DNA of 64,000 nt from Nocardioides sambongensis (GTDB lineage: Bacteria; Actinomycetota; Actinomycetes; Propionibacteriales; Nocardioidaceae), in NCBI RefSeq assembly GCF_006494815.1, contig NZ_CP041091.1:4106501-4170500 (forward strand). Reading direction: 5' to 3'. Position numbers and translations under genes: made by a program. The notes below the pieces were generated by a model. It did no database searches. It saw only the letters and a program-made list of their open reading frames with translations, and was not told the origin of the DNA. Shown piece by piece: positions 27,250-62,595 of this stretch (within the stretch, counting starts at the first letter, position 1; each line of letters begins with the position of its first letter).

Positions 27250-27297
27250 AACTCGCTGGTCAGCAGCCATGCAGGGATCCTGAATTCAGGAGAACTC

Positions 27298-27666
27298 ATG
27301 GCAACTCACCAGAAAGTCACCACTAACGCGTCTCGTTCCGCACGTGCCTGGAGCGACCTCGGGCGCTCTCGGCCATATCCGGAGCACCTCGTGCACCTGG
27401 ATTGCATGACCACCTCCACACGTCGCCAGCCCCGCTCAGCCACGTCCGGATATGAGTCTGGACTCGACCCGGTCCTCACGCTCTCTGCCCTCGCCGCCCA
27501 ACTCGGGGTGAGCGTGCAAACGCTGTACGACCTGAGAAGCCAGGGCCGCGGGCCGCGCGGCTTCCGGGTTGGCCGAGAGCTGCGATTCCGTCTCAGCGAG
27601 ATCGAAGCCTGGCTCGCCCGGCTCGAGGAGGCCGACGCGCTCCGCCACCCGGAAGCACTGTCGTGA
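27298..27666 (+). CDS. Helix-turn-helix excisionase-like protein
   Basis: 122 aa from ATG 27298, with GGAG upstream; the longer open frame back through the tRNA gene is not coding. The C-terminal part LTLSALAAQLGVSVQTLYDL, then GPRGFRVGRELRFRLSEIEAWL, is the AlpA/MerR-like HTH with wing seen in excisionases next to integrases. It probably directs excision together with the integrase, or represses it. Its stop overlaps the integrase start (GTGA). The N-terminal ~50 residues have no clear homology. Confidence 0.82.
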   Translation: MATHQKVTTNASRSARAWSDLGRSRPYPEHLVHLDCMTTSTRRQPRSATSGYESGLDPVLTLSALAAQLGVSVQTLYDLRSQGRGPRGFRVGRELRFRLSEIEAWLARLEEADALRHPEALS

Positions 27667-34501: not shown

Positions 34502-35821
34502 ATGCCGATCCCTCAGCGCCGAAGGCTGGTCACCGCTATCCCGGGTCCGATCTCGAAGGAGTTGATGAGTCGCAAGGCTGGAGCCGTTGCGGCGGGCGTC
34601 GGGACGACGATGCCAGTGTTCGCTGCGCGCGCCGCGGGGGGAATCGTCGAGGATGTCGACGGCAACCACTTGATCGATCTTGGGTCTGGGATCGCTGTCA
34701 CCACAGTCGGCAACAGCGCGCCGCGGGTTGTCGAGGCCGTGCGGGCGCAGGTCGCTGAGTTCACCCACACGTGCTTCATGGTGACGCCATACGAGAGCTA
34801 CGTGGCAGTTGCCGAGCGGCTGAACGAACTGACACCAGGTACACATGACAAGCGCACCGCATTGTTCAACTCGGGGGCAGAGGCGGTCGAGAACGCCATC
34901 AAGATAGCTCGCGCTCACACCGGACGTCAGGCGGTGGTCGTGTTCGATCACGCCTACCATGGGCGGACGAACCTCACGATGGCGATGACGGCGAAGAGCA
35001 TGCCTTACAAGCATGGGTTCGGACCGTTCGCCTCTGAGGTCTACCGCGCCCCGTTGTCGTATCCGTTCCGCGACGAGGTCGACGGACCGACGGCCGCTCG
35101 CCGTGCCATTGAGGTCGTCGAGAAGCAGGTCGGCGGGGCGAACCTGGCGGCGATGGTGATCGAGCCGATCCAGGGTGAGGGCGGATTCATCGAGCCGGCT
35201 GCGGGCTTCCTGTCCGCGCTGATCGAGTGGTGCACCGCGAACGGCGTCGTGTTCGTGGCTGACGAGGTCCAGACCGGCTTCGCCCGCACCGGTGACATGT
35301 TCGCCTGCGATCACGAGGGCGTTGTTCCCGATCTGATTGTGACGGCCAAGGGTATTGCCGGGGGATTGCCCTTGTCGGCAGTCACGGGCCGAACAGAGAT
35401 CATGGACGCACCACACTCTGGCGGTCTCGGGGGTACCTACGGCGGAAACCCACTGGCTTGTGCGGCTGCGCTGGCTGCAATCGACACCATCGTCGAGGAC
35501 GGGCTGACCGCTCGCGCACGTGAGATCGGAACGCTGATGCTGGCCGAACTGCAACGTATGCGGGCGGTCGACCCTCGCATCGGCGATGTTCGCGGCCGCG
35601 GGGCGATGATCGCAGTCGAGCTGGTTCGTGCCGGCACCAGCGAGCCCGACGCGGATCTTGCGCGTGCCGTCGCCGCAACTGCCCACGCCGCGGGCGTGAT
35701 TGTGCTCACCTGCGGCACGTTCGGCAATGTTCTGAGGTTCCTGCCGCCCTTGACGATCAGCGATGGGCTGTTGGCCGAGGCGCTCGAAGTCCTCCGCGAT
35801 GCCCTGACGACTCTCGCATGA
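34502..35821 (+). CDS. gabT: 4-aminobutyrate aminotransferase (class III)
   Basis: 439 aa. Motifs are NSGAEAVENAIKIAR (phosphate binding), FDHAYHGRTNLTMAMTAK, MVIEPIQGEGGFI, ADEVQTGFARTG, the PLP-lysine segment VTAKGIAGGLPLSAV and GTYGGNPLACAAALA. This is the GabT subgroup of class III aminotransferases. It transfers the amino group of GABA to 2-oxoglutarate, giving succinate semialdehyde and glutamate. ATG 34502 is close to the LysR gene's promoter. It overlaps the dehydrogenase gene (ATGA), and the three genes to 38478 form a GABA-to-succinate operon. Confidence 0.92.
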   Translation: MPIPQRRRLVTAIPGPISKELMSRKAGAVAAGVGTTMPVFAARAAGGIVEDVDGNHLIDLGSGIAVTTVGNSAPRVVEAVRAQVAEFTHTCFMVTPYESYVAVAERLNELTPGTHDKRTALFNSGAEAVENAIKIARAHTGRQAVVVFDHAYHGRTNLTMAMTAKSMPYKHGFGPFASEVYRAPLSYPFRDEVDGPTAARRAIEVVEKQVGGANLAAMVIEPIQGEGGFIEPAAGFLSALIEWCTANGVVFVADEVQTGFARTGDMFACDHEGVVPDLIVTAKGIAGGLPLSAVTGRTEIMDAPHSGGLGGTYGGNPLACAAALAAIDTIVEDGLTARAREIGTLMLAELQRMRAVDPRIGDVRGRGAMIAVELVRAGTSEPDADLARAVAATAHAAGVIVLTCGTFGNVLRFLPPLTISDGLLAEALEVLRDALTTLA

Positions 35822-37085
35822 CGGCCGTGGCTCAATCGACCGACGAGGCAGGGCCGTTGGCCGACGCTGTGGCTCAGCTCGAGCAGGCCGCAGAGATCCT
35901 CGGCTACGACGGGGGCACTCTCGACATGCTGCGTGCGCCGCGGCGCGAAGTCACTGTGAGTATCCCGTTGAGGCGAGACGACGGGTCGGTCGAAGTGCTC
36001 ACCGGACACCGGGTGCAGCACAGCCTCACCCGCGGCCCGGCGAAGGGTGGGGTCAGGTTCAGCGCCCACGTGGACCTCGACGAGGTGCGCGCCCTGGCGA
36101 TGTGGATGACCTGGAAGTGCGCCTTGATGCACCTGCCCTACGGGGGCGCGAAGGGCGGTGTTCGCATTGCTCCAGAGAACTACTCGGCGGCTGAACTGGA
36201 GCGAGTGACGCGCCGCTTCACCTCCGAGATCCTTCCGGTGATCGGCCCCAATCGTGATATTCCGGCACCGGATATCGGCACAGATGAGCGTCACATGGCC
36301 TGGATGATGGACACCTTCTCGGTTGCCAGTGGTCACACCGTATTGGGCGTGACCACTGGGAAGCCCGTCGGACTAGGGGGATCCCTCGGGCGCGCGGGCG
36401 CGACGTCGTTCGGTGTCGTGGAGATCGCTCTGGCCGCCCTCAGGCACGTCGGCATCACCCCCCGCATGCGACCGCAGCGGTCCAGGGATTCGGCAAGGTC
36501 GGCCGCGGAGCAGCCCGCTTGCTGGAGGAGGCAGGTATCCGTGTGATCGCTGTCAGCGATGCGTCGGGAAGCATCTGGAACCGCAATGGGATCGACGTGC
36601 AGGCCCTCGCCACCCACGTCGACGGGACCGGCGCCGTCCAGCACTTCGACGGCGGGGTTCCGATCGAGAGCGACACGCTGCTAACGCTCGATGTCGACCT
36701 CTTGGTCCCGGCCGCGATCGAGGGCGTGATCAACGCCGCGAACGCCGACCGAGTCCGCGCGGCCGTCGTAGTTGAAGGCGCAAACGGCCCCACGACCACG
36801 GAGGCCGACCAGGTCCTTGCCGACCGCGGCGTACTCGTCGTGCCCGACATCCTCGCCAACGCCGGCGGCGTCGTCGTGTCCTACTTCGAATGGGTCCAAG
36901 CCAACCAGGCCTATTGGTGGAGCGAGACGGACGTCGAAAGCCGCCTGTCAGAGCGTATGGCGTCCGCCTGGAACGACGTCTTGACCGAGGCGACCCGCCG
37001 GGACGTCTCACTACGAACTGCGGCCACCTGCTTGGCCGTGCAAAGGGTCGCAGAGGCCCACCGCCAGAGAGGACTCTACCCGTGA
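35818..37085 (+). CDS. gdhA: Glu/Leu/Phe/Val-type glutamate dehydrogenase (frameshift in C run)
   Basis: 422 aa after one added C in CCCCCC 36458-36463. The substrate site is GPAKGGVRFSAHVDLDEVRA and LPYGGAKGGV, with the Lys residues of the family, and DIPAPDIGTDERHMAWMMD follows. In the corrected frame the Rossmann motif reads AAVQGFGKVGRGAARLLEEA, then VVVEGANGPTT and ANAGGVVVSYFEWVQ. It oxidises glutamate to 2-oxoglutarate and ammonia (NAD(P)). Placed between gabT and the semialdehyde dehydrogenase gene, it would regenerate the acceptor used by GabT. Confidence 0.88.
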
Positions 37086-38478
37086 TCAGCGCCACTTTCG
37101 AAGTCGAGGACCCCGCCACCCTTGCGGTGATTGATCACGTCCCTGACGCCACTGTCGAGCAAGCCACCGCTGCCCTGGGCCGCGCCCACCAGGCCTTTCC
37201 AACCTGGGCCTCGCTCGCTCCACGCCGCCGATCAGAGGTGTTGCGCACGGCGTTCGACCTCATGCTGCGCGACAAGGATCGACTCGCCGCGCTCATCGCC
37301 CACGAGAACGGTAAGTCGCTCGCCGACGCTGCCGCCGAGGTCGCCTACGCGGCGGAGTTCTTCCGATGGTTCTCCGAGGAAGCAGTACGTCCAGCTGGCG
37401 AGTTCGGCGAAGCACCTGCTGGAGGAGCGCGCTCTGTGGTGCACCACAAGCCCGCCGGTGTCGCCGCGCTCGTCACCCCGTGGAACTTCCCCGCCGCGAT
37501 GGCGACCCGCAAGATCGCACCGGCTCTTGCAGCAGGGTGCACGGCGGTCTTGAAACCAGCAGCCGAGACCCCGCTGACAGCGCTCGCAATCGCCGACCTG
37601 CTGCGTGAGGCGGGCCTTCCCGACGGAGTGCTGGAGATTGTGCCCACGACCGCTGCGGCCGACGTGGTGTCGGCCTGGATGGGCGACGCCCGGGTCCGGA
37701 AGATCTCCTTCACCGGATCCACCGCAGTCGGTCGCATCCTGCTCGCCCAGGCCGCAGACCGTGTGGTCAACGCCTCGATGGAGCTGGGTGGCAATGCTCC
37801 GCTCGTAGTCACCGAGGACGCCGATCTCGACACCGCGGTGACCGGAGCGATGATCGCCAAGTTCCGAAACGGCGGACAGGCATGCACTGCCGCCAACCGA
37901 ATCTACGTCCACGATGCCATCGCGGAGGAGTTCATCGCCCGATTCGGTGCCGAGGTGGAGAAACTCACCGTCGGTCCCGCTGCAGACGGCTCGGCCATCG
38001 GCCCGATGATCTCCAAGGCCGCCGCCGAAAGGATCGCGGCCGTTGTGGAGGACGCGGTCCGGCAAGGTGCACGCATCTCGCACCAGGCGCGCATGCCCGA
38101 AGCTCCGGGACACTTCTTCGCGCCCACCGTCCTTGTCGACGTGAAGCCCGACAACTCGATTCTCGCCCAAGAGATCTTTGGGCCCGTGGCCCCATCGTCG
38201 CGTACACCGATGACGCCGACCTCATCAAGCAGGCCAACAACACCGAGTACGGCCTTGCTGCCTACGTCTTCGCCGGCGACCTCGGCCGAGCCCTGCGCCT
38301 TGCCGAGCGGCTCGATGCCGGCATGGTTGGTGTCAACCGAGGTGTCGTCTCCGACCCGTCCGCCCCGTTCGGGGGCGTGAAGCAAAGTGGCCTCGGCCGA
38401 GAAGGTGCTCGCGAGGGCCTGCGCGAATTCCAAGAGGCTCAGTATCTCTCTGTGGCTTGGGATGCATGCACAGCATGA
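37082..38478 (+). CDS. gabD: Aldehyde dehydrogenase, probable succinate-semialdehyde dehydrogenase (frameshift in C run)
   Basis: 465 aa after one added C in CCCC 38190-38193; GTG 37082 overlaps the previous stop. Landmarks are LVTPWNFPAAMATRKIAPAL, SFTGSTAVGR, the catalytic Glu in MELGGNAPLVV, the nucleophile Cys in GGQACTAANR and, after correction, APIVAYTDDADLIKQANNTE, then FGGVKQSGLGREGAREGL. The sequence type (PWNFPAAM, GGNAP) is that of GabD. With GabT and the glutamate dehydrogenase it completes conversion of GABA to succinate. Confidence 0.9.
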
Positions 38479-42519: not shown

Positions 42520-42907
42520 TGATGCCTCCAAGCGGTTGGTGTCGCTTTCGATCCTCGCGACGCCGCTCGGGTGCGCGATGCCTGGACATCGAAGTTCTCG
42601 ACCTCCCGTCGCCGGAAACCGGAGGACCGTCCGCGAAGGAGAGTTTCCTGTTGGCGCTGGCACGGATCTGAGCGCACTCTTCCTTGGGTGTATCCGCGGC
42701 GCTTTACGGTTGCGAAACGCGATCGACCCCGGGGCGTGACCCGATCGGCAGCCCTTTCCGCACATCGTCCGGTGCCGAATTCAACTTTCCTGGTTCCGTA
42801 GATCCGCGCGAACCTGTCCAGCGCCAGAATCTCGGTGATCCAGGTCACAGATCCCGCCGAGATGGTCTCCCGCGGGGTGGGTCGGTATGGAAGAGAAAGG
42901 CTTGTCC
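42520..42907. other. 388-bp divergent intergenic region
   Basis: It holds the promoters of the NmrA-like gene and the permease. The word CCGCACATCGTCCG near 42757 closely matches CCGCACATCGTTCG upstream of the SDR at 40831, which could be a shared operator half. A short inverted block ACTTCGATGTCC also occurs in both regions. No gene is seen. Confidence 0.4.
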
Positions 42908-44371
42908 ATGAGTGTGTCGTCGGAGTCATCCACCTCGAGTGCAGGATCTACGGAGGAGTCCGATCTCCCCGTGAGGCTTCATGGCCGCATTGGCGCTCTC
43001 GGCCTGCTGTTCATGATCATCGCGTTCAACGGTCCGCTGTCAGGCGTCATCGGCTACGTACCGGTCGTCATCGGCTACGGCAACGGGCTCGGCGCACCCG
43101 TGGCGTTTCTCTTCGGCGGGATCGTCCTGACCGCGTTCGCGGTCGGCTTCGTCAGCATGTCGAAGTGGGTTCCGAACCCGGGAGGCTTCTACTCGTTCAT
43201 CACTGCCGGCCTCGGCCGCACGATGGGGCTCGGCGCGTCGATGCTGGCGCTCGCCACCTACTTCGTGATCAGCCTCAGTTCTGCTGCCTACTTCGGCATC
43301 GCCATGAAGCAGCTTGTCGAAGTCACGTTCAACGGCCCGGTGATCGACTGGTGGGTGTACGGCATCGGCATCCTCGTCGCGGTCGGGCTGCTCGGCTACC
43401 GCCATCTCGAGGTCTCGGCGAAGGCACTCTTCGTCCTGCTCGGCGCGGAGATGCTGATCGTCGCGATCTACGACATCGCGGTCCTCGTGCAGGGCGGAGC
43501 CGAAGGGCTCTCGGCTGACTTCGTGGAACCGAGCCACATCTTCTCTGGTTCGGTGGGCCTGGCTATCATGTTCGCCACCATCACGTTCGCAGGGTTCGAG
43601 TCCACCGTCGTGTTCCGCCATGAGGTCCGCGACCCCGACCGCACAATTCCGCGGGCGACCTTCGGGTTTCTGGCCGTCGTTGGCATCTGCTACGCATTTT
43701 CGGCGTGGATCGTGACGCAGGCGCTCGGCCCGAGTGTTGCCGTTGAGGCGACGGCGGCTGACCCGACGGGATCGGTGTTTGCCACGATCGAGCAGTTCCT
43801 CGGGGCCTTCGGCGTCGACGCCGTGAACGTGCTCCTCAACACGAGCATCATCGCCGCGATCATTTCGATGCACAACGTTATGTCGCGATACATCTTCAAT
43901 CTTTCGACGCACGGCGTGTTCAGCAAGCGTCTCGCAGTGGTTCACGCGTCGCATCAGTCGCCTTATCGCGCATCGGTGGTCACCACGATCGCGTGCGTCG
44001 TCGGTCTCGCGGCGCTCGCGATCAGCCAGGCTGACATCGTGTTGCTGTACGCGCAGCTGGGAGGCATCTTCGGCTACGCGCTCCTGGTGCTCTTGGTGGT
44101 GACTGACGTCGCGGTCATCGTCTTCTTCTGGCGCACGAAGCCCATGGGCGTGCCGGTATGGAAGCGCATCGTGGCCCCAGTGGTTGCGCTGATGGGCTTG
44201 GTGACCGTCCTGGTGCTCGGCACACTGAACATCGACTTCCTCCTCGGCGTGTCGGCGGGTCAGGCCTACATCATCTGCGGTGCGGTCTACGTCCTGTGGG
44301 CCTTGGGCTCGCTGTGGGCCCAGGTGCTCAAGCGTCGCCGCCCCGGCGTGTACCAGTCCATCGGCGACTGA
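42908..44371 (+). CDS. APC-superfamily amino acid permease
   Basis: 487 aa from ATG 42908, with GAAAGG 8-13 nt upstream; ATG 42887 is the alternative. There are about twelve hydrophobic segments. The first carries the APC signature (GLLFMIIAFNGPLSGVIGYV) and later ones include YSFITAGLGRTMGLGASMLA and FATITFAGFESTVVFRHEVR, with the conserved GFE. It is a proton-coupled amino acid/amine transporter of the inner membrane. Its place between the GABA/ketone genes and the CoA-transferase genes makes it the likely importer of the island's substrate. Confidence 0.87.
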   Translation: MSVSSESSTSSAGSTEESDLPVRLHGRIGALGLLFMIIAFNGPLSGVIGYVPVVIGYGNGLGAPVAFLFGGIVLTAFAVGFVSMSKWVPNPGGFYSFITAGLGRTMGLGASMLALATYFVISLSSAAYFGIAMKQLVEVTFNGPVIDWWVYGIGILVAVGLLGYRHLEVSAKALFVLLGAEMLIVAIYDIAVLVQGGAEGLSADFVEPSHIFSGSVGLAIMFATITFAGFESTVVFRHEVRDPDRTIPRATFGFLAVVGICYAFSAWIVTQALGPSVAVEATAADPTGSVFATIEQFLGAFGVDAVNVLLNTSIIAAIISMHNVMSRYIFNLSTHGVFSKRLAVVHASHQSPYRASVVTTIACVVGLAALAISQADIVLLYAQLGGIFGYALLVLLVVTDVAVIVFFWRTKPMGVPVWKRIVAPVVALMGLVTVLVLGTLNIDFLLGVSAGQAYIICGAVYVLWALGSLWAQVLKRRRPGVYQSIGD

Positions 44372-48525: not shown

Positions 48526-48558
48526 ACTTAGTCATCTGACTTAGCCGAGTGACTAAGT
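48526..48558. promoter_or_regulatory. 33-bp operator A, upstream of the ferredoxin operon
   Basis: Perfect 9-bp outer arms ACTTAGTCA (48526-48534) and TGACTAAGT (48550-48558), with an inner TGACTTAGCC. Read on the minus strand, the full 33 bp aligns without gaps to 52127-52159, sharing 25 or more positions including GGCTAAGTCAG. It lies 25 bp before the ferredoxin start. The likely ligand is the TetR protein at 51389-51979. Confidence 0.8.
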
Positions 48559-48583: not shown

Positions 48584-48907
48584 ATGACGACCGTGACCTA
48601 TCGATCCTCGGACGGCGCCGCGCGTGAGATCGAAGCCCGCGACGGAAGCTCGCTGATGGAGGTCGCCGTCAAGGACGGCGTGCCGGGCATCGTGGCCGAG
48701 TGCGGCGGCGCGGCGGCGTGCGCGACCTGTCACATCTATATCGACGCTGGCTTCGCCCACGTCGTCGGTGAACTCGATGACCTCGAGGACGAGATGCTCG
48801 ATGACACGGTCGGCGAGCGTCGGGACACCAGCCGCCTGGCCTGCCAGATCATCGTGACCCCCGAGCTGGACGGGATCGTGGTCGAGATTCCCGAGGCCCA
48901 GCAATGA
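48584..48907 (+). CDS. 2Fe-2S ferredoxin (putidaredoxin/adrenodoxin type)
   Basis: 107 aa; AGGAGG precedes ATG 48584. The cluster ligands are in AECGGAAACATCHIYI (C-x5-C-x2-C) and RLACQII. The acidic helix GELDDLEDEMLDD is the docking region for reductase and oxygenase. It shuttles electrons one at a time from the NADH-ferredoxin reductase encoded next (ATGA overlap) to a terminal oxygenase, usually a P450 or Rieske enzyme. No such oxygenase is encoded in this operon. Confidence 0.94.
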   Translation: MTTVTYRSSDGAAREIEARDGSSLMEVAVKDGVPGIVAECGGAAACATCHIYIDAGFAHVVGELDDLEDEMLDDTVGERRDTSRLACQIIVTPELDGIVVEIPEAQQ

Positions 48908-50169
48908 GTGCCGGCGACGGTGTCCTGATCGTCGGTGGTGGGCAGGCGGCTTCGCAGCTTGCCGTCTCGCTGCGCGAGCGCGGCTACGACCAGCCGATCC
49001 GGATAGTCGGTGAGGAGCGGAACGGGCCGTACCAGCGGCCCCCGCTCTCCAAGGCGTTCCTGGCGGGGAAGGCCGACGCCGAGACCCTCGAGTTCCGGTC
49101 CGTGGACTTCTACGCCCGGGAGCACATCGAGGTCGTGACCGGTGAGCGGATCGTCGACGTCGAATTGGGTGACGACGGTGGCGCGGTCCGCTCCGCCTCC
49201 GGGTCCTCGTTCTCGTTCGACCAGCTGGTGCTCGCCGTCGGCGCGGAGCCAAGGCGACTGGAGGTTCCGGGACACGATCTCGACGGAGTCGTGTATTTGC
49301 GCGATGTCGACGACGCGGAGGACCTGAAGGCCCGGATGGGTACCTGTCGCGACGTTGTTGTGGTCGGTGGGGGTTTCATCGGACTCGAAGCGGCCGCCGT
49401 CGCCCGAACACGTGGTCATCGAGTCACGGTGCTCGAGGCAGGATCGAGGCTCCTGGCGCGTGCAGTCGCTCCGGAGATGTCGGAGTTCTATCGTGCGGCA
49501 CACGAGCGTCGCGGTACGCGGGTCGTTCTCGGCGCCAGTGTCGAGCGGTTCGTCGGTGACGAGCGAGTGCGCCACGTGGAGCTTAGTGACGGCGAGCTGG
49601 TCGACGCTGACCTCGTCATCGTGGGAATCGGTGTCGTCCCGCGGACGGCCATCGCGGAGCAGATCGGGCTGATGTGCGACGGTGGGATCCTCGTCGACGC
49701 CTACGGGCGTACATCGAACCCTCGTGTGCTTGCGGCAGGTGACTGCACAGTCTCGGTGCATCCTCGCGGTAACGGGTCGGCGATCCGACTCGAGTCCGTC
49801 CAGCACGCGGTCGACCAGGCCAAGTGCGTAGCGGCCACGCTCGTCGATCAACTCGAACCGTACGAATCGGTGCCGTGGTTCTGGTCGGACCAGGACACGT
49901 TGAAGCTGCAGATCGCCGGACTGTCGACGGGGTATGACCAGGTCGTCGTCCGCGGAAGCGTCCAGGACGAGAAGTTCGCGCTCTTCTACTACCGCGACGG
50001 CGTCCTGATCGCCGCCGATGCAGTCAACTCGCCGCGAGACTTCATGGCCGTTCGTCGCGCGCTGGGGGAGGGCCGATCGATTCCCGCCGCTGTCGCGGCG
50101 GATCCCGATCAGTCCCTTCGTGCGGCGACGACGTCGCCGGCCGATCTCACGACAGGAGCAAGTGCGTGA
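48904..50169 (+). CDS. NAD(P)H-dependent ferredoxin reductase (FAD)
   Basis: 421 aa. The FAD site is VLIVGGGQAASQLAVSLRER, then NGPYQRPPLSKAFLAGK. The NAD site is VVVVGGGFIGLEAAAVART and the second FAD contact is NPRVLAAGDCTV. The C-terminal dimer/reductase domain contains VPWFWSDQDTLKLQIAG. It is a putidaredoxin-reductase-like enzyme, the partner of the ferredoxin upstream. It overlaps the cupin gene (GTGA). Confidence 0.94.
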   Translation: MSAGDGVLIVGGGQAASQLAVSLRERGYDQPIRIVGEERNGPYQRPPLSKAFLAGKADAETLEFRSVDFYAREHIEVVTGERIVDVELGDDGGAVRSASGSSFSFDQLVLAVGAEPRRLEVPGHDLDGVVYLRDVDDAEDLKARMGTCRDVVVVGGGFIGLEAAAVARTRGHRVTVLEAGSRLLARAVAPEMSEFYRAAHERRGTRVVLGASVERFVGDERVRHVELSDGELVDADLVIVGIGVVPRTAIAEQIGLMCDGGILVDAYGRTSNPRVLAAGDCTVSVHPRGNGSAIRLESVQHAVDQAKCVAATLVDQLEPYESVPWFWSDQDTLKLQIAGLSTGYDQVVVRGSVQDEKFALFYYRDGVLIAADAVNSPRDFMAVRRALGEGRSIPAAVAADPDQSLRAATTSPADLTTGASA

Positions 50170-50549
50170 ACGACCTGAGCAACATCTACCCCAGCATCTC
50201 GTGGGATCCCGACTCGCAGATGTGGGAGGACGGCGACTTCCCGCTCACCCTGATCGACCGTGACCCCGAGATCCAGATCCACGTGCTCGGCGATCCGCCG
50301 CCGGGTGACCCGACCGTCGGGTTCGCCCGAGGTAAGCCCTCGGTCTTCGAGGTCTCCCTCTCGACGCACGAGACGGTCTTCATCCTGGAAGGAACCGGCC
50401 GCGTGGAGGTCGACGGCCGCCTGGTCGAGCTCGCTCCCGGCGTCGCGACCACCTTCAAGCCCGGATGTGTCGCGCGTTGGACCATCGATACGCCGATCCG
50501 CGAGCTGTTCGTGATGTCCGCGCCCGTGACGCTCGCTGAGGAGGTCTGA
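50166..50549 (+). CDS. Cupin-domain protein
   Basis: 127 aa from GTG 50166. The cupin core appears in STHETVFILEGTGRVEVDGR (motif 1 lacks the full HxH set) and LAPGVATTFKPGCVARWTID (motif 2 G-x-x-x-x-F/P-x-G). This resembles DUF861-type and sugar-binding-like cupins, in which the metal site is partial. It could be a small isomerase, a binding protein or a dioxygenase. It is third in the ferredoxin operon and sits 1 bp from the orphan gene that follows, so both likely act together. Confidence 0.8.
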   Translation: MNDLSNIYPSISWDPDSQMWEDGDFPLTLIDRDPEIQIHVLGDPPPGDPTVGFARGKPSVFEVSLSTHETVFILEGTGRVEVDGRLVELAPGVATTFKPGCVARWTIDTPIRELFVMSAPVTLAEEV

Positions 50550-50550
50550 C

Positions 50551-51303
50551 ATGCACGTCGCAAATCTGCTCGACGTCGAGAAGTTCGAGGTCGCGATCGA
50601 CGGCCGGGTCGGGGTGGTGAGCGACGTGTTCCCGGAGTTCCATCGCTACGACCGGTTCGGCATCGTCATTCATGACGACTTCGGTGCGCTCGGGGCGGGG
50701 CTGCTGATCCAGGCGGTGACAGCGGAGATGTTCCGCGTTCGGCGGGCGCAAGGGATGCCAGATATCTACCCGGAGATCTACGCGTTCCACGTCGGTCGTG
50801 ATCACTGCGACCTGAGCATGTTCGACTTCTGGCCACGCCACAAGGAGGTCGTAGTCGACGACGAGCCGGCAGCCATTGTTCAAGCGATCAACGCGCGCGG
50901 CATCACGCGCCTCGCGGTTCCCGAGGGCGACGTGCGCCCCTTCGAGTTCATTTGGCCCGAGCGTGCCGCAGCGGTGGATCGCATCTCAACCGTCGTGGCC
51001 TACTCGCCTGGCGGTCACGCGGCCGACTCGGACGTGAAGATCCGCTCGCTATCGCCTGACCTGGAGTTCAACCCCGAGAAGGTCTTCGATGTGAGGGACT
51101 ACGCGCTGTCTCTGGCAAACGACGATGCCACGCCGGACGTCCGGCGGTTCATCGGCCATGCGTGGGCGCGCCAGTTCGCCGTGCCGGACGCTGCCCGCGA
51201 AGCTGCCGAGGCTCGCTTCCTTGCGAACCGGATCGACGGACTGACGATGGAGTCCTACCGCCGCGCGGACGTCGAGTATGCGCTTGGGCGCCTCGTCAGG
51301 TGA
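50551..51303 (+). CDS. Protein of unknown function in the ferredoxin/cupin operon
   Basis: 250 aa from ATG 50551, one base after the cupin stop. I recognise no family. It has no signal peptide or membrane helix. The N-terminal half is beta/alpha with FHRYDRFGIVIHDDFGALGA and PEIYAFHVGRDHCDLSMFDF, followed by WPRHKEVVVDD. Conserved-looking His, Asp and Cys residues in HVGRDHCDLS could bind a metal. The middle is WPERAAAVDRISTVVAYSPG, and the C-terminus is helical. As the only gene of the operon without a known role, and with no oxygenase nearby, it is a candidate for the enzyme served by the ferredoxin, though this is speculative. Confidence 0.72.
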   Translation: MHVANLLDVEKFEVAIDGRVGVVSDVFPEFHRYDRFGIVIHDDFGALGAGLLIQAVTAEMFRVRRAQGMPDIYPEIYAFHVGRDHCDLSMFDFWPRHKEVVVDDEPAAIVQAINARGITRLAVPEGDVRPFEFIWPERAAAVDRISTVVAYSPGGHAADSDVKIRSLSPDLEFNPEKVFDVRDYALSLANDDATPDVRRFIGHAWARQFAVPDAAREAAEARFLANRIDGLTMESYRRADVEYALGRLVR

Positions 51304-51388
51304 ATCGGTGCTGCTTCGAGAGATCGAGGCGCCCATATGATCAGCATTGCGCCTCCGCGCACACCCGTCCGAAAAGGCCAGGAGAGTC

Positions 51389-51979
51389 ATGCCCCATGTC
51401 CCGGCGTCCGAACGTCGCGTCCAGCTCGTCGAAGCGGCTACTCGCCTGATCAGCCGCGACGGTGTCGGAGCGGCGACGACGCGCAGGATCGCGGAGGAGG
51501 CTGCGGCCCCCGCGGCCAGCGTCTACTACACGTTCGGCACCAAAGAGCAGCTCTTCATCCAGGTCCTCAGTTCGTCTGTCGGCACGACCGGTGAGGTGCT
51601 GAACGATGTCGACGTCCCGGACGGTGCGGGACTCGTGTCGGCGGTGTCCACCTTGCTGAAGGGTTTCACGAGGCTCGACCCGGATTCGATCATGGCGCAG
51701 TTCGACCTGCTCTTGTGGAGTCTGCGTCAGGACGTGGTGCAAGATGCAGCCGCCGACACGTATCGCGACCTGTGGAACGGCATGACGGCGTCGTACCAGC
51801 GTGCGGCCGCTCCCGATGAGAAGTCAGCAGACTTCCACTTGCTGGCGCGCCTCACCACCACGACCTGCGACGGGATCCTGTTCGGAATGCTGTGCAATCG
51901 GGGTTCTTATCTCGACGACGTGCACCTCGACACCATCGCGATGTCGATGGTGAGGATGGCACTCCAAGCCACGGTCTGA
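51389..51979 (+). CDS. TetR-family transcriptional regulator
   Basis: 196 aa from ATG 51389 with GGAGAG upstream; a start at 51347 lacks a binding site. The HTH lies at residues ~12-55 (LISRDGVGAATTRRIAEEAA and PAASVYYTFGTKEQLF), with a helical ligand domain after it. It sits between the ferredoxin operon and the FAD-monooxygenase gene, both of which carry the same 33-bp operator, so it probably represses both. A hairpin terminator follows. Confidence 0.9.
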   Translation: MPHVPASERRVQLVEAATRLISRDGVGAATTRRIAEEAAAPAASVYYTFGTKEQLFIQVLSSSVGTTGEVLNDVDVPDGAGLVSAVSTLLKGFTRLDPDSIMAQFDLLLWSLRQDVVQDAAADTYRDLWNGMTASYQRAAAPDEKSADFHLLARLTTTTCDGILFGMLCNRGSYLDDVHLDTIAMSMVRMALQATV

Positions 51980-52002
51980 CCCTCTCCCGGGAGTCCTCCT
52001 GC

Positions 52003-52026
52003 CCAGCCCGTCGTCCGGCGGGCTGG
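52003..52026 (+). terminator. Terminator hairpin after tetR
   Basis: CCAGCCCG (52003-52010), 8-nt loop, CGGGCTGG (52019-52026), then TTCT. Perfect 8-bp stem 24 bp past the stop codon. Confidence 0.7.
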
Positions 52027-52066
52027 TTCTCGGCGCCCTCTCGTGCTCTGGCAAGTGACCTCGGTT

Positions 52067-52081
52067 ACGTGAAGTTCACGT
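52067..52081. promoter_or_regulatory. Perfect palindrome ACGTGAA-G-TTCACGT
   Basis: A 15-bp perfect palindrome 46 bp upstream of operator B. It is AT-rich compared with the surroundings and follows the tetR terminator. It may be an additional operator for the monooxygenase promoter. Confidence 0.5.
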
Positions 52082-52126
52082 GAATGCCTTGACGATCGCG
52101 CTGCTCACCCACAAGATGGTCTGACA

Positions 52127-52159
52127 AGTTAGTCAGTTGGCTAAGTCAGTCGCCTAGGT
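52127..52159. promoter_or_regulatory. 33-bp operator B, upstream of the FAD monooxygenase
   Basis: The sequence begins AGTTAGTCAGTTGGCTAAG and ends CGCCTAGGT. It aligns end to end with the reverse complement of 48526-48558. Differences are clustered in the outer arms, and the core GGCTAAGTCAG is identical. It lies 53 bp before the start at 52212. Confidence 0.8.
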
Positions 52160-52211
52160 TCAGTCCGGGTTCGCCTGAACATCACGCGGGTTACGGGAAG
52201 AGAGTGCACAC

Positions 52212-53601
52212 ATGGTGGAAGCAGACAAGCAGCACGGACATGCGGTCGTTATCGGAGCGAGCGTGGCGGGCCTGCTCGCCGCCGGCGCTGCCAGCAAGAC
52301 CTTCGACTCCGTGACGATCATCGAGCGCGATGAGCTCGTTGACGAACCTACTCCACGCAAGGGAGCCCCCAAGGCACCCAGATCCACGTCGTGTTGCCGA
52401 TCGGCCTGGAGAACATGGAGCGGATCTTCCCCGGTATCCGACAGGACTTCCTCGAGGCCGGCTGCTTCGAGTACGACGAGATGGCCATGGTCGTCACGAT
52501 GAGCCCCTACGGATGGCGCCGCCGCGTGGCCAGTGAGGAGGGCGTCGGCTTCCGCCGGCCCGTCTTGGAACTCGCGATCCGCCGCCGGCTCCAAGGTATC
52601 GACAACGTCGAGTTCATCCACGCGTCGGTCAGGGGCCTTCAGGCCGACCCTGCCAAGACCCGCGTCACCGGCGTCGAACTGCGGGACGGGCGGATGATCG
52701 AGGCAGACTTCGTTGTCAACGCGACCGGTCGTCGCACGAAGGCCATCGACTGGTTGGCGGACCTGGGATTCGGGGCGCCGAAAGAATCGCATCTCAGCGC
52801 GTTCATGGGCTACTCGACGCAGTTCGTCAAGCTGCCGGAAGACGCGTTTCTCGGCGACGTCCTCGGAGTCGTCGCGCCGCCGTGGCCGGGACACCACCGC
52901 GGCGTCGCGATCCTGCCGGCCGACAACGGACTGCACGCCTTCACGGCCATGGGAATGGCGAAAGACTACCCCTCACGGGATAAAGCGGAGATCGTCGAGT
53001 TCCTCGAGTCCGGCATGTGGCCGCCGGCCGCTGACATCCTCCGGCGGAGCGAGGCCGTCACCGAGTTCACCCCGTACCACCAGGACGGGACACTGATGCG
53101 GCACTGGCACTCGGCCGACCTTCCGGAGCGCTTCGTGACCGTTGGTGACGCGGTCGCGTCGATGAACCCGATCTACGGACAGGGCATGAGCCTGTCCGCG
53201 GTAGCAGCCTCGACTCTGCAGGACGCGCTCGTGGCCGCGGACGACCTCGACGGTGTCGGCGCGCGCGTCCAGAAGGAGCTCGGCCCGGTCATCGAGGCCG
53301 CATTTCTTCTCACAGCCGGTGCGGACGCCGGTTTCGAGGGGCCGAATGGAGTGACGACTACGTTCCGGGAACCGAGCTGGACGAGCAGCGAGCGATGGCC
53401 CTCGAGGTTCTCCTGACGCAGCGTCCCGACGTCGCCCACGCCGTGTCGCGGGCCCTCTACTTCCTCCAGCCCGAGGTGCTGGACACCACTGACGTCGTGG
53501 CGGTTCTGGACGAGTGGCTCGCCGGGGACCGAAAGGTGCCGTCCTTCGACGCGCACAGCTATCCGCAGCAGATCGATGCGGTCGACGCGAAGCTCGTCTG
53601 A
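52212..53601 (+). CDS. FAD-dependent monooxygenase (two frameshifts in G/C runs)
   Basis: 463 aa after adding one base at 52366-52370 and one at 53338-53341. The N-terminal FAD motif is AVVIGASVAGLLAAGAAS. The corrected joint reads RKGAPQGTQIHVVLPIGLEN. Then follow DFVVNATGRRTKAIDWLADL and the second FAD motif ERFVTVGDAVASMNPIYGQG, and after the second joint PGTELDEQRAMALEVLLTQR. It is a squalene-epoxidase/halogenase-like group A flavoenzyme that hydroxylates or epoxidises its substrate. It has its own promoter with operator B and ends at a strong terminator. Confidence 0.83.
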
Positions 53602-56488: not shown

Positions 56489-58939
56489 ATGAGAACCCGA
56501 GAGCTGCCTGATCGGGCCCAGATCGTCATCGTCGGCGGCGGAGTCGTCGGCATCGGCACCGCGTACCACCTAGCTCGCCGCGGGTGGACCGATGTGGTCG
56601 TCGTCGAGCAGAACACCCTCACGTCAGGGACGACCTGGCACGCCGCCGGGCTCGTGACCCAGGCCCGCGGCACCGATGGCACTCGTCGCATCGTCCAGCG
56701 CAGTCTTGACGTGTTTCGCCACCTCGAGGAGGACACGGGGTTCTCGACGGGATTCGTCGAGACCGGAACCCTCAACCTCGCGACCAGTCGGGACCGGTGG
56801 GAGGAACTCAAGCACCAAGCGACTTCGGTGCGGTCGAGCGGCGTACGTGCCGACCTCCTCGGGGTCGCCGAGACCCTCGAGCTCTACCCGCTGCTGAACC
56901 CGGAAGGCATTGTCGGAAGCCTCTACTTCCCCGAAGACGGTCGTGGTTCCGCCACTGACACGACGATGTCGATGGCTCGTGGCGCCACCCGCCGAGGCGT
57001 CCAGATCTTCGAGAACACCTCAGTAACCGACGTCGTCGTCCAGCACGGACGTGCGACGCAGGTCGAAACCGACCGTGGGACGATCCAGTGCGAGTACGTC
57101 GTGAACGCGACGGGCATGTGGGGCCGCCAGTTCGGCGCGAAGCACGGCATCGAGGTCCCGCTGCAGGCGTTGGCTCACTTCTACGTCGTGACCGAGGCGA
57201 TCGACGGACTTCCGCGCAACTTGCCGACGGTCAAGAGTGGCGACGATTACTCGTACGTCAAGGACGAGGCCGGAGCGCTGATGGTCGGCTTTTTCGAGCC
57301 GGGCAGCTACCCGTTCGCGTCGGGGGGTGTGCCGACGGAGCAGGGCTTCATTCAGTTGCCTGAGGACTGGGACCACCTCGGGCCATTCTACGAGAAGATG
57401 ATGGCTCGCATCCCCGTGCTTGAGGACGCCGCGATCAAGTTGCACTTCTGCGGCCCCGAGAGTTTCACTCCAGACGGTCAATATCACCTTGGCCCCGCGC
57501 CGCTGGTTCCGAACTACTTCGTCGCGGCCGGCTTCAACTCGGTGGGATTCCTGTCGGGTCCCGGTGCCGGCTCGGTGCTCGCCGACTGGATCGTTGATGG
57601 TCGCCCGCCGCTTGACCTCGCTGAGGCCGACCCGGCCCGCGTGCACCGGCACGAGATCAATCGGCGCTTTCTGGAGAAGCGAGTCGTCGAGTCCCTCGAC
57701 CTCTCCTATGAGATCCACTGGCCGTTCCAACAGCGCGAGAGTGCACGAGGTCTTCGCCGGAGCCCCCTCTACGCCGAGACCAAAGCGGCGGGAGCCGTAT
57801 TCGGCGAGCTGGTGGGCTGGGAGCGGCCCAATTGGTACGCCCCCGAGGGCGTCGCGCGGACCTACGACTACTCGTTCGGGCGTCAGAACTGGTTCGAGCA
57901 CTCCGCGCGTGAGCACCGCGCAGTCCGGGAGGGCGTCGGCATGTTCGACACCTCGTCGTTCGGCAAACTGCTCGTCCAGGGCCGCGATGCCCTTGTCCTC
58001 ATGCAGCAGCTCAGTGCAAACAACGTCGACGTCCCGGTCGGCCAAATCGTCTACACGCAGTGGCTCAACGAGCACGGCGGTATCGAGGCCGACGTGACGA
58101 TTACGCGGACAGAGGAGAATGCGTTCTTGGTCCTGTCGGGGCCGTGGACCGTCGAACGGGACCACGCGCGCATTAGGCGGCACATCCGAGACCTCAACGC
58201 CACTGTCACCGACATCACGGGATCGCTGGCGATGCTGGCTGTGATGGGCCCTGACTCGCGCCGACTCCTGCAGCCGCTGACCGACGCCGACCTGTCCGCG
58301 GAGGCGTTCCCGTTCGGGCAGTCGCAGACGATCGACCTCGGATTCGGATTCGTCCGGGCCACCCATATCACCTACGTCGGTGAGCTGGGGTGGGAGCTTC
58401 TGATTCCCAGCGACATCGCGGCGCACGTCCACGAAGTCCTAGTAGAGGCCGGGAGCGAGCACGGGCTCGTTCACGCCGGCTATCACGCACTCAACTCGCT
58501 GCGCACCGAGAAGGCGTACCGCAGTTGGGGGCACGACATCGGATACACCGACACGCCGATTCAAGCCGGACTCGGCTTCGCCGTCGCGTGGGACAAGCCC
58601 GGCGGATTCATCGGCCGTGACGAGCTGCTCCGCCAGAAAGAGCACGGCGTGGACCGACGCCTTGTCCAGTTCCTGCTCGACGATCCCGAACCGATGCTTT
58701 ACCACGACGAGTCGATCTATCGCGACGGACGGCGCGTCGGCCGGGTCGCATCGGCGATGTACGGACACACCCTCGGCGGGGCCGTCGCGCTCGGGTGGGT
58801 CACCGCTCCCGAGGTGGGGCAGCCACGTGGGTGGTTCGAGTCCGGCACCTACGAGATCGAGGTGGCGGGACGTCGCGTCTCCGCCACTGCATCCTTACGA
58901 CCCATGTACGACCCGAAGTCCGAGAGGCCGAAGAGTTGA
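56489..58939 (+). CDS. FAD- and folate-dependent dimethylglycine dehydrogenase-like oxidase
   Basis: 816 aa. ATG 56489 with AGGAG upstream. An N-terminal DAO domain (IVIVGGGVVGIGTAYHLARR) carries SGTTWHAAGLVTQ, whose His matches the residue that covalently holds FAD in dimethylglycine dehydrogenase. FAO_M, GCV_T (YDYSFGRQNWFEHSAREHRA, THITYVGELGWELLIPS) and GCV_T C-terminal barrel domains follow. The family demethylates dimethylglycine, sarcosine or gamma-N-methylaminobutyrate, passing the methyl group as CH2-THF. It is coupled to purU by a TTGA overlap, which supports folate recycling. Confidence 0.9.
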   Translation: MRTRELPDRAQIVIVGGGVVGIGTAYHLARRGWTDVVVVEQNTLTSGTTWHAAGLVTQARGTDGTRRIVQRSLDVFRHLEEDTGFSTGFVETGTLNLATSRDRWEELKHQATSVRSSGVRADLLGVAETLELYPLLNPEGIVGSLYFPEDGRGSATDTTMSMARGATRRGVQIFENTSVTDVVVQHGRATQVETDRGTIQCEYVVNATGMWGRQFGAKHGIEVPLQALAHFYVVTEAIDGLPRNLPTVKSGDDYSYVKDEAGALMVGFFEPGSYPFASGGVPTEQGFIQLPEDWDHLGPFYEKMMARIPVLEDAAIKLHFCGPESFTPDGQYHLGPAPLVPNYFVAAGFNSVGFLSGPGAGSVLADWIVDGRPPLDLAEADPARVHRHEINRRFLEKRVVESLDLSYEIHWPFQQRESARGLRRSPLYAETKAAGAVFGELVGWERPNWYAPEGVARTYDYSFGRQNWFEHSAREHRAVREGVGMFDTSSFGKLLVQGRDALVLMQQLSANNVDVPVGQIVYTQWLNEHGGIEADVTITRTEENAFLVLSGPWTVERDHARIRRHIRDLNATVTDITGSLAMLAVMGPDSRRLLQPLTDADLSAEAFPFGQSQTIDLGFGFVRATHITYVGELGWELLIPSDIAAHVHEVLVEAGSEHGLVHAGYHALNSLRTEKAYRSWGHDIGYTDTPIQAGLGFAVAWDKPGGFIGRDELLRQKEHGVDRRLVQFLLDDPEPMLYHDESIYRDGRRVGRVASAMYGHTLGGAVALGWVTAPEVGQPRGWFESGTYEIEVAGRRVSATASLRPMYDPKSERPKS

Positions 58940-59802
58940 GCACCATCACCGATCACGAGTTCATCGTCAACCTGTCGTGCGCCGACGGCCCCGGCATCGT
59001 CGCCGGTGTCTCGACGTTCCTGGCAGAGCGCCGCTTCTCCATCAAGGAGAGCAAGCAGTTCGGCGACGCCGACACCCATCGGTTCTTCATGCGTGTCCAC
59101 GTCGTCTCTCTCGACGGCGAGGTTGACCTCGCCGAACTGCAGTCCGACTCGGCGCTTCTGGCGAAGGACATGGGCCTTGACCTCAAGGTAAGGGGCGTCT
59201 CGCAGAGGGATCGGCTGCTGGTGATGGTGTCGAAGCAGAGCCATTGCCTCAACGACCTGCTCCACCGCGCGAGTATCGGAGCGCTCCCCGCGGAGATCGT
59301 GGCTGTGGCCTCGAATCACGAGGACCTGCGATCGTTGACCGAGTGGCACGGCGTCCCGTTCCACCACGTGCCGGTCACCGCCGACACGAAGCAGGCGGCC
59401 GAGGACGAGGTTCGTGGTCTGGTCAGCAAGTACGATGTCGACACGGTCGTGCTGGCTCGTTACATGCAGATCCTGTCAGACCAGCTGTGCAAGGACCTAG
59501 ACGGCCGTGCCATCAACATCCACCACTCCCTTCTGCCGAGCTTCAAGGGTGCGCGTCCGTACTTCCAGGCCTACGACCGTGGCGTGAAGGTGGTTGGCGC
59601 CACCGCTCACTACGTAACTGCCGATCTAGACGAAGGCCCGATCATCGACCAGGACTTCCAGAGGGTCGGGCATGCACTCGATGCACTGGAGCTCACCGCA
59701 CTCGGTCGCGACATCGAGGCGAGGACCCTGGCGCGGGCAGTCACCGCTCATGCGCAACGACGTGTCATGCTGAACGGTCACCGGACGGTCGTCTTCGACT
59801 GA
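58936..59802 (+). CDS. purU: Formyltetrahydrofolate deformylase PurU
   Basis: 288 aa from TTG 58936, overlapping the oxidase stop; this start gives the standard length. The N-terminal ACT domain (residues ~5-85) begins FIVNLSCADGPGIVAGVSTF. The formyl-transferase domain has LARYMQILSDQLCKDLDGRA, INIHHSLLPSFKGARPYFQA with the catalytic Asn/His, and HYVTADLDEGPIIDQD with the catalytic Asp. It hydrolyses 10-formyl-THF to formate and free THF, which the upstream demethylase needs. Confidence 0.93.
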   Translation: MSTITDHEFIVNLSCADGPGIVAGVSTFLAERRFSIKESKQFGDADTHRFFMRVHVVSLDGEVDLAELQSDSALLAKDMGLDLKVRGVSQRDRLLVMVSKQSHCLNDLLHRASIGALPAEIVAVASNHEDLRSLTEWHGVPFHHVPVTADTKQAAEDEVRGLVSKYDVDTVVLARYMQILSDQLCKDLDGRAINIHHSLLPSFKGARPYFQAYDRGVKVVGATAHYVTADLDEGPIIDQDFQRVGHALDALELTALGRDIEARTLARAVTAHAQRRVMLNGHRTVVFD

Positions 59803-61021: not shown

Positions 61022-61173
61022 CTTGCGCGTCGTCGTCCGGACTTGACCGAAGGCGGGACAACCGCGATCGACTTTACGGACTTCGTCATAGGTGTGGTCG
61101 GTCTGGGCAACCAGAGTCAGTGGCGATCGGTTTCTCGCCAGGTGCGGGCAACCGCCGAGACGAAGGAGAACCC

Positions 61174-62595
61174 ATGGCCAGCTACAAGCCGAAGGACTCG
61201 GCCGTCGAGCGATTCGAGTCCCGACGACTCCTCAAGTCGGTGGTCGAGAGCTCTGACTATTCCGAGCAGATCCAGCAAATCGTCGCGCGGATGGAAGAGC
61301 TTGACGTAGAGGGCCTCTACTTCCAGATCTCGTCCATTGACGGTCGCGTTCTCGGGAAGCTCGTGATGCGCGACTACGTCGAGGACGTGGCTCACGCCGG
61401 CGTCCGACTCTTCCACGGCGCCGTGAGCGCGGTCGGCGTGCAGGGAGAGACCATCGGCTTCGCCAACGAGGCCGAAGAGGGGCTCGTCATCCCCGATCCT
61501 GAGACGTTCCAGGTGCTGCCCTGGGAGCCTCGGCTGGCTCGGGTCTGGTGCAACTGGTACCACGAGGGGACTGGCGAGTTGCTCGACCAGGACCTCCGCG
61601 GCAACCTCATGCGGCAGGAGGCCCTCCTCGAGCAGGAGACCGGTCTGCGGGTGATGACCGGGATCGAGCCCGAGATGATGTGGCTGAAGCAGCCTGAGAA
61701 CAAGGGCGACATGCCCACCCACACCACCGACAGTTTTGCGATGTACCACGTCGCCCAGTTCCACGAGTTGGAGAAGGTCTTTCTCGACGTCGTCGCCTAC
61801 GGCCGCGCCATGGGGTTGAAGCTCTCGCACGGTGACCACGAGGATGCGTCGCAGATCGAGTTCAACCAGGAGCCCTCCACTCCGCTGCGCTTCGCTGACG
61901 ACTTCGTGACGTACCGCCAGATCTGTCGTGTCGTCGCGCGTCAGCACGGGCTGATCGCCTCGTTCATGCCGAAGCCGTTTGCCGGCGTCTCGGGCAACGG
62001 CCACCATCACCACGTGTCGCTCGTGGACGCCGATGGCCGCAACAAGACCCACGGCGACCTGATGGGCCGTTCGCAGCTCTCCCAGATTGCGCTGTGGTTC
62101 GCTGGGGGTCTGCTCGAGCACGCCGACGCGCTCACCCTCGTCGGTTGCCCGAGCGTCAACTCGTACAAGCGCTTCTGGGACGTCGGCTTCTGGGCACCCT
62201 TCATGAAGAAGTTCGGGTGGCAGAACCGCACCGTGACGCTGCGCGTCCCAGCGGCCGGTCGCTTCGAAATCCGTCAGTTTGACTCCTCCTGCAATCCGTA
62301 CCTCACCCTGGCGGGCGTGACTGCCGCTGCTCTGGACGGGATCAGTCGACAGATTGATCCCGGTCAGCCGCACGAGGCTGACGGCAGCCTCAGCACGGAG
62401 GTCGCCCGCGAGGACCGGATCCCGCTGTCGCTGCAGGAGGCGATCGATTCGTTCGTCGCCGATCCGCTCATGAAGGAAGCGTTCGGCCCCGTCCTACACG
62501 ACACCTTCCTCGGCATCCGCCGCGACGAACTGATCCGCTACTCCGGCCAGGTCACTCCGTGGGAGATTGAGACCTACCTGACGCGGACTCCCTGA
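61174..62595 (+). CDS. Glutamine synthetase-like gamma-glutamyl ligase
   Basis: 473 aa from ATG 61174 with AAGGAGA. GS catalytic segments are TGIEPEMMW, SQIEFNQEPSTPLRFADDFV, SGNGHHHHVSLVD, NSYKRFWDVGFWAP and GRFEIRQFDSSCNPYL. The N-terminal beta-grasp domain is atypical for biosynthetic GlnA, and the neighbours are catabolic. This fits the GlnA3/GlnA4/PuuA/GmaS group, which gamma-glutamylates polyamines, ethanolamine or methylamine. The ALDH gene downstream matches the PuuA-PuuC logic. The true amine substrate is unknown. Confidence 0.85.
   Translation: MASYKPKDSAVERFESRRLLKSVVESSDYSEQIQQIVARMEELDVEGLYFQISSIDGRVLGKLVMRDYVEDVAHAGVRLFHGAVSAVGVQGETIGFANEAEEGLVIPDPETFQVLPWEPRLARVWCNWYHEGTGELLDQDLRGNLMRQEALLEQETGLRVMTGIEPEMMWLKQPENKGDMPTHTTDSFAMYHVAQFHELEKVFLDVVAYGRAMGLKLSHGDHEDASQIEFNQEPSTPLRFADDFVTYRQICRVVARQHGLIASFMPKPFAGVSGNGHHHHVSLVDADGRNKTHGDLMGRSQLSQIALWFAGGLLEHADALTLVGCPSVNSYKRFWDVGFWAPFMKKFGWQNRTVTLRVPAAGRFEIRQFDSSCNPYLTLAGVTAAALDGISRQIDPGQPHEADGSLSTEVAREDRIPLSLQEAIDSFVADPLMKEAFGPVLHDTFLGIRRDELIRYSGQVTPWEIETYLTRTP

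Follow-up and report, generated by a model that had tools for sequence, protein, structure and literature searches.

In the available text on COQ6, a class A flavin monooxygenase of mitochondrial coenzyme Q synthesis, the enzyme is driven by FDXR and FDX2; a reconstructed tetrapod-ancestor COQ6 worked when FDXR plus FDX2 were supplied but not when NAD(P)H was the only addition (PMC7615680). The epoxidases MonCI and Lsd18 (LasC) belong to polyether synthesis; MonCI is described, in the accessible part of one report, as a class A enzyme that requires NAD(P)H (PMC10560226), and the accessible part of the Lsd18 paper argues from likeness to p-hydroxybenzoate hydroxylase (PMC12144862). Here, a 64,000-nucleotide stretch of Nocardioides sambongensis (contig NZ_CP041091.1, positions 4,106,501 to 4,170,500; referred to as the window) was analyzed. 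It carries an operon for a putidaredoxin-type [2Fe-2S] ferredoxin (Fdx), a ferredoxin reductase (FdR), a cupin and a 250-residue protein of an unnamed family (the orphan), followed by a gene for a flavin monooxygenase whose best PDB matches are MonCI and Lsd18.

Our tentative reading is that this flavin monooxygenase accepts the electrons of Fdx and FdR and that the orphan is its companion. The operon would then belong to a regulon of two operons located on a mobile catabolic island, with one TetR-type operator before both the Fdx-FdR-cupin-orphan operon and the flavin monooxygenase. Electrons would pass from NAD(P)H to FdR, to Fdx and on to the class A-type flavin monooxygenase, as in mitochondrial COQ6. 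The orphan would be soluble and lack a redox cofactor, and it would either handle the oxygenated product or hold the substrate or the enzyme; its exact chemistry is a guess. The likeness to COQ6, to judge from the available text (PMC7615680), is that a class A flavin monooxygenase would be paired with a [2Fe-2S] ferredoxin of the adrenodoxin/putidaredoxin type and a reductase that uses NAD(P)H. The two systems differ in pathway and in the MonCI-like character of the window enzyme, and electron transfer in the window is read from gene context. The window gene in turn differs from MonCI and Lsd18 in its setting, a catabolic island with a ferredoxin pair. We know of no orphan-like partner of COQ6.

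The operon, its operator-like repeats and the flavin monooxygenase

48528..48557, + strand: TetR-type operator-like repeats, upstream of Fdx
48584..48907, + strand: Fdx, putidaredoxin-type [2Fe-2S] ferredoxin, 107 amino acids (aa), Cys 40/46/49/87
48904..50169, + strand: FdR, ferredoxin reductase with Pyr_redox_2 and Reductase_C, 421 aa
50166..50549, + strand: cupin, Cupin_3, 127 aa, weak PDB match to TM1112
50551..51303, + strand: orphan, 250-aa protein of an unnamed family
51392..51979, + strand: TetR-family regulator, 3' of the orphan (start 51392 chosen by us; open reading frame (ORF) 51347-51979)
52129..52157, + strand: second operator-like copy, upstream of the flavin monooxygenase
52212..53601, + strand: MonCI/Lsd18-like flavin monooxygenase, in pieces in different frames (N part 52239-52397, main part 52358-53341)

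Fdx and FdR overlap by 4 bases, as do FdR and the cupin gene, and the orphan begins 1 base past the cupin stop. The four genes thus form one tight operon, as a first-pass annotation of this DNA had described; its observation as a whole is confirmed, with a 1-base gap at the final junction, and its interpretation is partly supported. Fdx has the features of a putidaredoxin-type ferredoxin, with a Fer2 domain (Pfam, E 8e-11), four cysteines and putidaredoxins as the nearest PDB chains (E 2e-30). FdR matches Pyr_redox_2 (E 3e-68) and Reductase_C (E 2e-31) in Pfam, and we take it to be of the BphA4/PdR type and, as a Reductase_C protein, to belong to a different family from FDXR. The plasmid relative of FdR with the highest identity (55.7%) is in R. 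opacus G13 (L102 7992-9227), where no adjoining ferredoxin or oxygenase was recognizable by eye. An Fdx relative in Nitratireductor OM-1 (L098 8001-8321, 51%) is surrounded by genes of amidohydrolase, creatininase-family and FAD oxidoreductase type, and the annotation of 16 kb shows no reductase, P450 or Rieske gene.

The cupin (Cupin_3, Pfam E 6e-8) has one histidine near motif 1 and an alanine at the motif 2 position by eye, judged against what we take to be the metal motif. It does not appear to be a metal-dependent cupin oxygenase, which would require the histidines of both motifs. No cupin relatives were found on plasmids at E 1e-3, and 40 of the 145 relatives, the own genome among them, show weak matches (next best E 3e-7). 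The pairwise match to the cupin of R. opacus is also weak (41% over 32 aa, E 6e-5). The cupin was therefore dropped as a marker of the system.

In a genome-wide pattern search, TTAGTCANNTGRCTWAG has zero-mismatch matches at 48528 and 52129 only. The operator pair before both units is thus real, consistent with the earlier description of the flavin monooxygenase as a co-regulated partner. Within the window, eight matches were found at <=3 mismatches versus 0.34 expected, seven of them at these two sites. Genome-wide at <=2 mismatches, the sole further match is a 2-mismatch site at G000:3187699, and a reversed control pattern likewise gave one match per strand. By this search the regulon therefore includes no P450 or Rieske gene, the presence of which would have counted against the reading of the first-pass annotation. 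The predicted sites are presumably bound by the regulator.

The main piece of the window flavin monooxygenase (residues 7-330) has MonCI/Lsd18 as its best PDB matches at E 2e-25, and the R. opacus enzyme (residues 2-340, 5-382) has the same best matches at E 2e-48. The match extends over the FAD and substrate domains, which places the enzyme in the MonCI/Lsd18-like class.

The shared set is also present on the 885-kb R. opacus plasmid pR1CP1, where the relatives of Fdx (53% identity), FdR (53.5%), the orphan (41%) and the flavin monooxygenase (42%) all lie within about 13 kb. The Fdx/FdR pair is about 9 kb from the orphan there; by our arithmetic, random placement on this plasmid would bring them within 10 kb of each other about 2% of the time. 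No P450 or Rieske gene was found in 48 kb of pR1CP1 by annotation or by tblastn with two P450 and three Rieske queries, so that a ferredoxin pair without such an oxygenase recurs near the orphan family. In M. aquaticum, a reductase with Fer2 and NAD-binding domains is located 2 kb upstream, and the 16-kb contig gave no P450 or Rieske match. Thus, an electron-transfer module near the orphan without P450 or Rieske gene recurs in two further genomes, and the common orphan neighbor in both is the flavin monooxygenase (about 38-42% identical to the window copy), with the orphan beginning 4 bases (R. opacus) and 5 bases (M. aquaticum) past it.

The orphan family and its neighbors

The orphan belongs to a genuine family without a Pfam or NCBIfam model. 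It matches no family in Pfam at E<=1 or in NCBIfam at E<=0.1, and PHROGs gave no match. Twenty-five members scanned singly against Pfam hit seven families, each in one member (best E 0.023), and neither P450 nor Rieske/Ring_hydroxyl_A is among these isolated weak matches. In the PDB, the single sequence found PutA at E 0.022; PutA was rejected as a relative, as two profiles missed it (best E 0.64 and 0.75). No credible PDB relative thus emerged from sequence or profile searches, and no report on the family was found by titles or abstract openings, in a literature that is not searchable by sequence. The protein thus has no model in Pfam or NCBIfam, in keeping with its description as unknown in the first-pass annotation, and no known non-redox family, which would have counted against that annotation's reading, was found for it. 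Homologs are present in 16 plasmid records and at 39 sites in genome contigs; with the own genome counted each time, 2 of 145 relatives and 3 of 394 genomes of the class have one. Among the hosts are Actinomycetota, alpha- and betaproteobacteria and haloarchaea.

The alignment (A3) comprises the window and 24 of the 39 genome loci. Near-duplicates (L017, L019, L021, L023, L025, L038, L045) and broken, cut or short rows (L030, L033, L037, L043, L044, L046-L048) were dropped, seven plasmid loci and G020 are excluded, and L039 and L040 were kept although their C ends look broken. Invariance and the tree refer to 25 rows and residue counts to 31 rows, with the rows chosen by us. His2, Arg35, Gly37, Val39, Tyr73, Pro74, Phe79, Asp92, Thr119 and Pro124 are invariant in the 25 rows; Asp92, Tyr73, Pro74, Phe79, Gly37, Val39 and Pro124 are present in all 31. 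The start codon is supported by GTG/TTG starts at the same position in three relatives (L002, L003, L045), which places the histidine directly after the start. This residue, His2, is the sole universal histidine (30 of 31 rows, the remaining row lacking its N-terminus).

A 2-His-1-carboxylate non-heme iron motif consists of two conserved histidines plus an aspartate or glutamate. The orphan candidates for it are His2, Asp92 (31/31) and His80, the last conserved in 27 of 31 rows and replaced by glutamine in all four archaeal rows. No cysteine column exceeds 7 of 31 rows, 11 rows have no cysteine at all, and the cysteine in the motif highlighted by the first-pass annotation is usually glycine across the family. 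These 31 sequences therefore lack the conserved cysteine ligands of an iron-sulfur or heme-thiolate protein, and together with the single universal histidine this disfavors an enzyme of the cluster or heme-thiolate kind and makes a conserved metal triad rather unlikely.

In the tree, the orphans of the window, Mesorhizobium 131-2-5, R. opacus and M. aquaticum form a clade (98/93), which is joined next by a Solirubrobacterales metagenome-assembled genome (MAG; 96/92). A Rieske gene is found in both Mesorhizobium 131-2-5 and the Solirubrobacterales MAG, neither of which has a MonCI-like monooxygenase.

Neighboring genes were surveyed at 35 other orphan loci, with L113 and L094 standing for L002 and L004. 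L016-L018, L021, L023, L025, L026, L029, L033, L037, L038, L045-L047 and archaeal L099-L101 were left out of the survey, and plasmid matches H5-H7, H9, H12 and H14 fell outside locus examination. Because the queries were drawn from the same loci or from the window, source loci count themselves, and the counts have no matched control. Fdx/FdR relatives are near 1 of the 35 loci, and a constant ferredoxin pair beside the orphan was not found across the loci examined. In nine other orphan-bearing genomes, the best reductases are <=46% identical. Other neighbors are Rieske proteins (4 loci), PDR-type 2Fe-2S reductases (4), MonCI-like monooxygenases (2), GMC (7) and trimethylamine-dehydrogenase-like proteins (7) and aldehyde dehydrogenases (11). 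Flavoenzymes are present at 21 of 35 loci in our union of six query groups, a figure that includes the self-counting queries and has no matched control; DAO alone gave 9-53 matches per genome in 17 genomes.

Amine- or betaine-like settings are found at some orphan loci only. At the haloarchaeal locus L008 there are genes for a BCCT transporter and an aldehyde dehydrogenase, one locus with a weak orphan relative adjoins ProX and a trimethylamine methyltransferase family protein, and another locus has an FMN oxidoreductase and an Fe-S oxidoreductase. In the related genome G356, the orphan is accompanied by an APC-type permease, a transaminase (79% identity to the window copy), a glutamate dehydrogenase (80%) and an aldehyde dehydrogenase (67-71%). 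None of the window's neighbors among the queries used was found with the orphan relative of G020. By annotation, haloarchaeal L099 has only transport, hydrolase and methyltransferase genes, and no catabolic enzyme set is present beside the orphan in L100 and L101; one fixed pathway is therefore disfavored. Overall, the family leans to oxidative amine-type catabolism and is not tied to ferredoxin.

The electron acceptor

The whole genome was searched with the Pfam P450, Ring_hydroxyl_A and Rieske models at E<=0.001, giving 14 P450 matches in 11 genes, one Ring_hydroxyl_A match and nine Rieske matches. None lies between window position 6716 and a borderline Rieske match at G000:4417707, and none in the approximately 53-kb island that contains the operon. 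The absence of P450 and Rieske genes nearby, as noted in the first-pass annotation, thus holds for the island; that annotation did not mention two P450 genes in the same window, 42 kb upstream of the operon and outside the island (hidden Markov model (HMM) matches 3959-4549 and 5466-6716). By eye, these two genes flank an SDR-like frame in the high-GC part of the window (3344-6785), with perhaps a small ferredoxin-like frame after the second gene. Used as a query in its own genome, Fdx gave two matches, itself and one other.

The first-pass annotation had passed over the flavin monooxygenase on the premise that such an enzyme would not need a ferredoxin. As a general rule this premise does not hold, as the available text on COQ6 indicates (PMC7615680). 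This precedent stands against the NAD(P)H requirement of MonCI, and for this reason the flavin monooxygenase is placed first among the candidate acceptors, narrowly ahead of oxygenases elsewhere in the genome, followed by a lost Rieske oxygenase and the orphan itself, in that order.

Several observations weigh against the flavin monooxygenase. MonCI is described as a class A enzyme requiring NAD(P)H, and a ferredoxin may therefore be needless. The window gene is not one open frame, with its N-terminal and main parts in different frames, and the enzyme may be dead, being frameshifted. The MonCI-like monooxygenase is seen at the R. opacus and M. aquaticum loci only and at none of the other 33 of the 35, and no Fdx/FdR is present in 58 kb around the G356 orphan. 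Co-regulation is evident in one genome only, since L094, L012 and L117 contain no site within 3 mismatches of the window operator and the R. opacus Fdx and flavin monooxygenase genes were not seen to share an upstream site; a conserved operator was not found in R. opacus, M. aquaticum or G356. In addition, R. opacus (L004 9889-10920) and M. aquaticum (L012 3341-4363) share an MpaB-type protein near the orphan (71% mutually identical), which could be the acceptor instead. This protein is annotated in R. opacus as oxygenase MpaB family; it gave no Pfam match at 1e-5. No match to it was found in the window, and PF09995 has six matches elsewhere in the own genome.

Nearly as likely, and ranked second, is that Fdx and FdR serve at least one oxygenase, P450 or other, encoded elsewhere in the genome and that the orphan is a mere operon neighbor. 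The 14 P450 matches compare with only two Fdx matches genome-wide, and related Fdx/FdR genes adjoin a P450 gene in Rhodococcus sp. USK13, whereas in Rhodococcus ruber Y14 they have a P450 gene within 4 kb. However, no P450 or Rieske gene bears the operator at <=2 mismatches, the pair is on a mobile island with its own regulator gene, and the R. opacus pair likewise has no such oxygenase near. Alternatively, the pair could be a leftover of an aniline-dioxygenase-type Rieske oxygenase once present on the island, which we consider unlikely. Among the closest Fdx/FdR relatives, those on the Corynebacterium occultum and Dietzia kunjamensis plasmids adjoin, by annotation, genes for Rieske alpha and beta subunits, a glutamine-synthetase-like protein and an amidotransferase. 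We label these sets aniline-dioxygenase-like. The window island, which likewise carries a glutamine-synthetase-like gene, differs from these sets in having no Rieske alpha and beta subunits, and both records are outside the 16 with an orphan relative. The Fdx relative of Nitratireductor OM-1 also has no annotated reductase or oxygenase, which fits such a loss, as do the frame changes in several island genes. Genes split or cut in this way are at 52212-53601, 54767-56319 (a PucR-like regulator by eye, spanning two frames), 35818-36546 and 9223-9995. The last, an SDR gene, is outside the island, and assembly error is therefore the likely cause, with decay as the alternative. Moreover, all four genes of the operon are intact and closely spaced behind an operator-like site, and no Rieske remnant was detected in the island (Pfam HMM, E<=0.001).

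The proposal of the first-pass annotation that the orphan is itself a new redox enzyme, perhaps acting with the cupin, is the least probable: that it is a new kind of ferredoxin-dependent oxygenase seems to us very improbable. In its favor, the bacterial rows retain His2, His80 and Asp92, and an electron-transfer module lies within about 10 kb in all five rows of the clade that includes Solirubrobacterales (96/92). These modules are Fdx/FdR in the window and R. opacus, a PDR/VanB-type 2Fe-2S reductase in Mesorhizobium 131-2-5 (by annotation) and M. aquaticum (by Pfam), and an Fe-S oxidoreductase with a Rieske gene in Solirubrobacterales. Against it are the lack of conserved cysteines, the single universal histidine, the glutamine in place of His80 in archaea, the scarcity of Fdx/FdR at the other loci (1/35) and the single usual metal histidine kept by the cupin. 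A Rieske oxygenase accompanies the orphan at 4 of 35 loci, where no substitute would be needed.

Should a ferredoxin indeed drive the flavin monooxygenase, the COQ6 arrangement would extend beyond mitochondria, and a ferredoxin pair could no longer be attributed only to a P450 or Rieske enzyme. A wider version of this reading seems doubtful to us: a bacterial catabolic counterpart of COQ6, in which a MonCI-like flavin monooxygenase runs on a putidaredoxin-type Fdx/FdR pair with a dedicated partner of a new family (invariant histidine after the start methionine), other members of which would serve oxidative amine/betaine pathways in proteobacteria and perhaps haloarchaea. The orphan family recurs in bacteria, often in catabolic gene groups, and in haloarchaea, and a single assay could assign a function to many "hypothetical proteins".

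The mobile island and its cargo

27174..27251, + strand: tRNA-Ala(CGC) (27174-27249), the 3' end of which is in the left island repeat (27213-27251)
27663..28583, + strand: integrase-like ORF just inside the left island end (by eye)
34502..38442, + strand: 4-aminobutyrate transaminase, glutamate dehydrogenase and succinate-semialdehyde-type dehydrogenase, a block common to G356
42887..44371, + strand: APC-type permease, with relatives at orphan loci of R. opacus, Arthrobacter, Mycolicibacterium and G356
56489..59802, + strand: dimethylglycine/sarcosine-type FAD enzyme with GcvT part (below curated cut-off), then formyltetrahydrofolate deformylase PurU (above it)
61120..62595, + strand: glutamine-synthetase-like ligase (below curated cut-offs)

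A 39-base repeat of the tRNA-Ala(CGC) 3' end is present at 27213-27251 and, beyond the window, at G000:4186849-4186887. The repeat, together with the integrase-like ORF inside its left copy, indicates an element of about 53 kb, and the GC content drops from 0.70-0.75 to 0.64-0.68 at about 28 kb. A second integrase-like ORF pair is found just past the right copy (L114 16906-17783, by eye).

The island also encodes PdxS. The transaminase, PurU and PdxS reach curated cut-offs, and the remaining enzymes are below these cut-offs or are named from relatives. The window glutamate dehydrogenase is cut short relative to its G356 counterpart. The lower nicotine pathway of pAO1 (MABO, FolD, PurU, SsaDH), as given in the available text (PMC6214936), resembles the island in the type of demethylating FAD enzyme, PurU and the succinate-semialdehyde-type dehydrogenase. 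This comparison covers lower-pathway enzymes alone. The island is a mobile catabolic one, probably for N-alkylated amine or amino-acid-like compounds.

In G356, a similar integrase-like fragment (L119 11754-12134) is located about 20 kb from the orphan and near the shared transaminase block, and the two islands may therefore be related mobile elements. At the left end of the window island (28672-30869), two frames were recognized by eye, one resembling a transposase and the other a group II intron reverse transcriptase.

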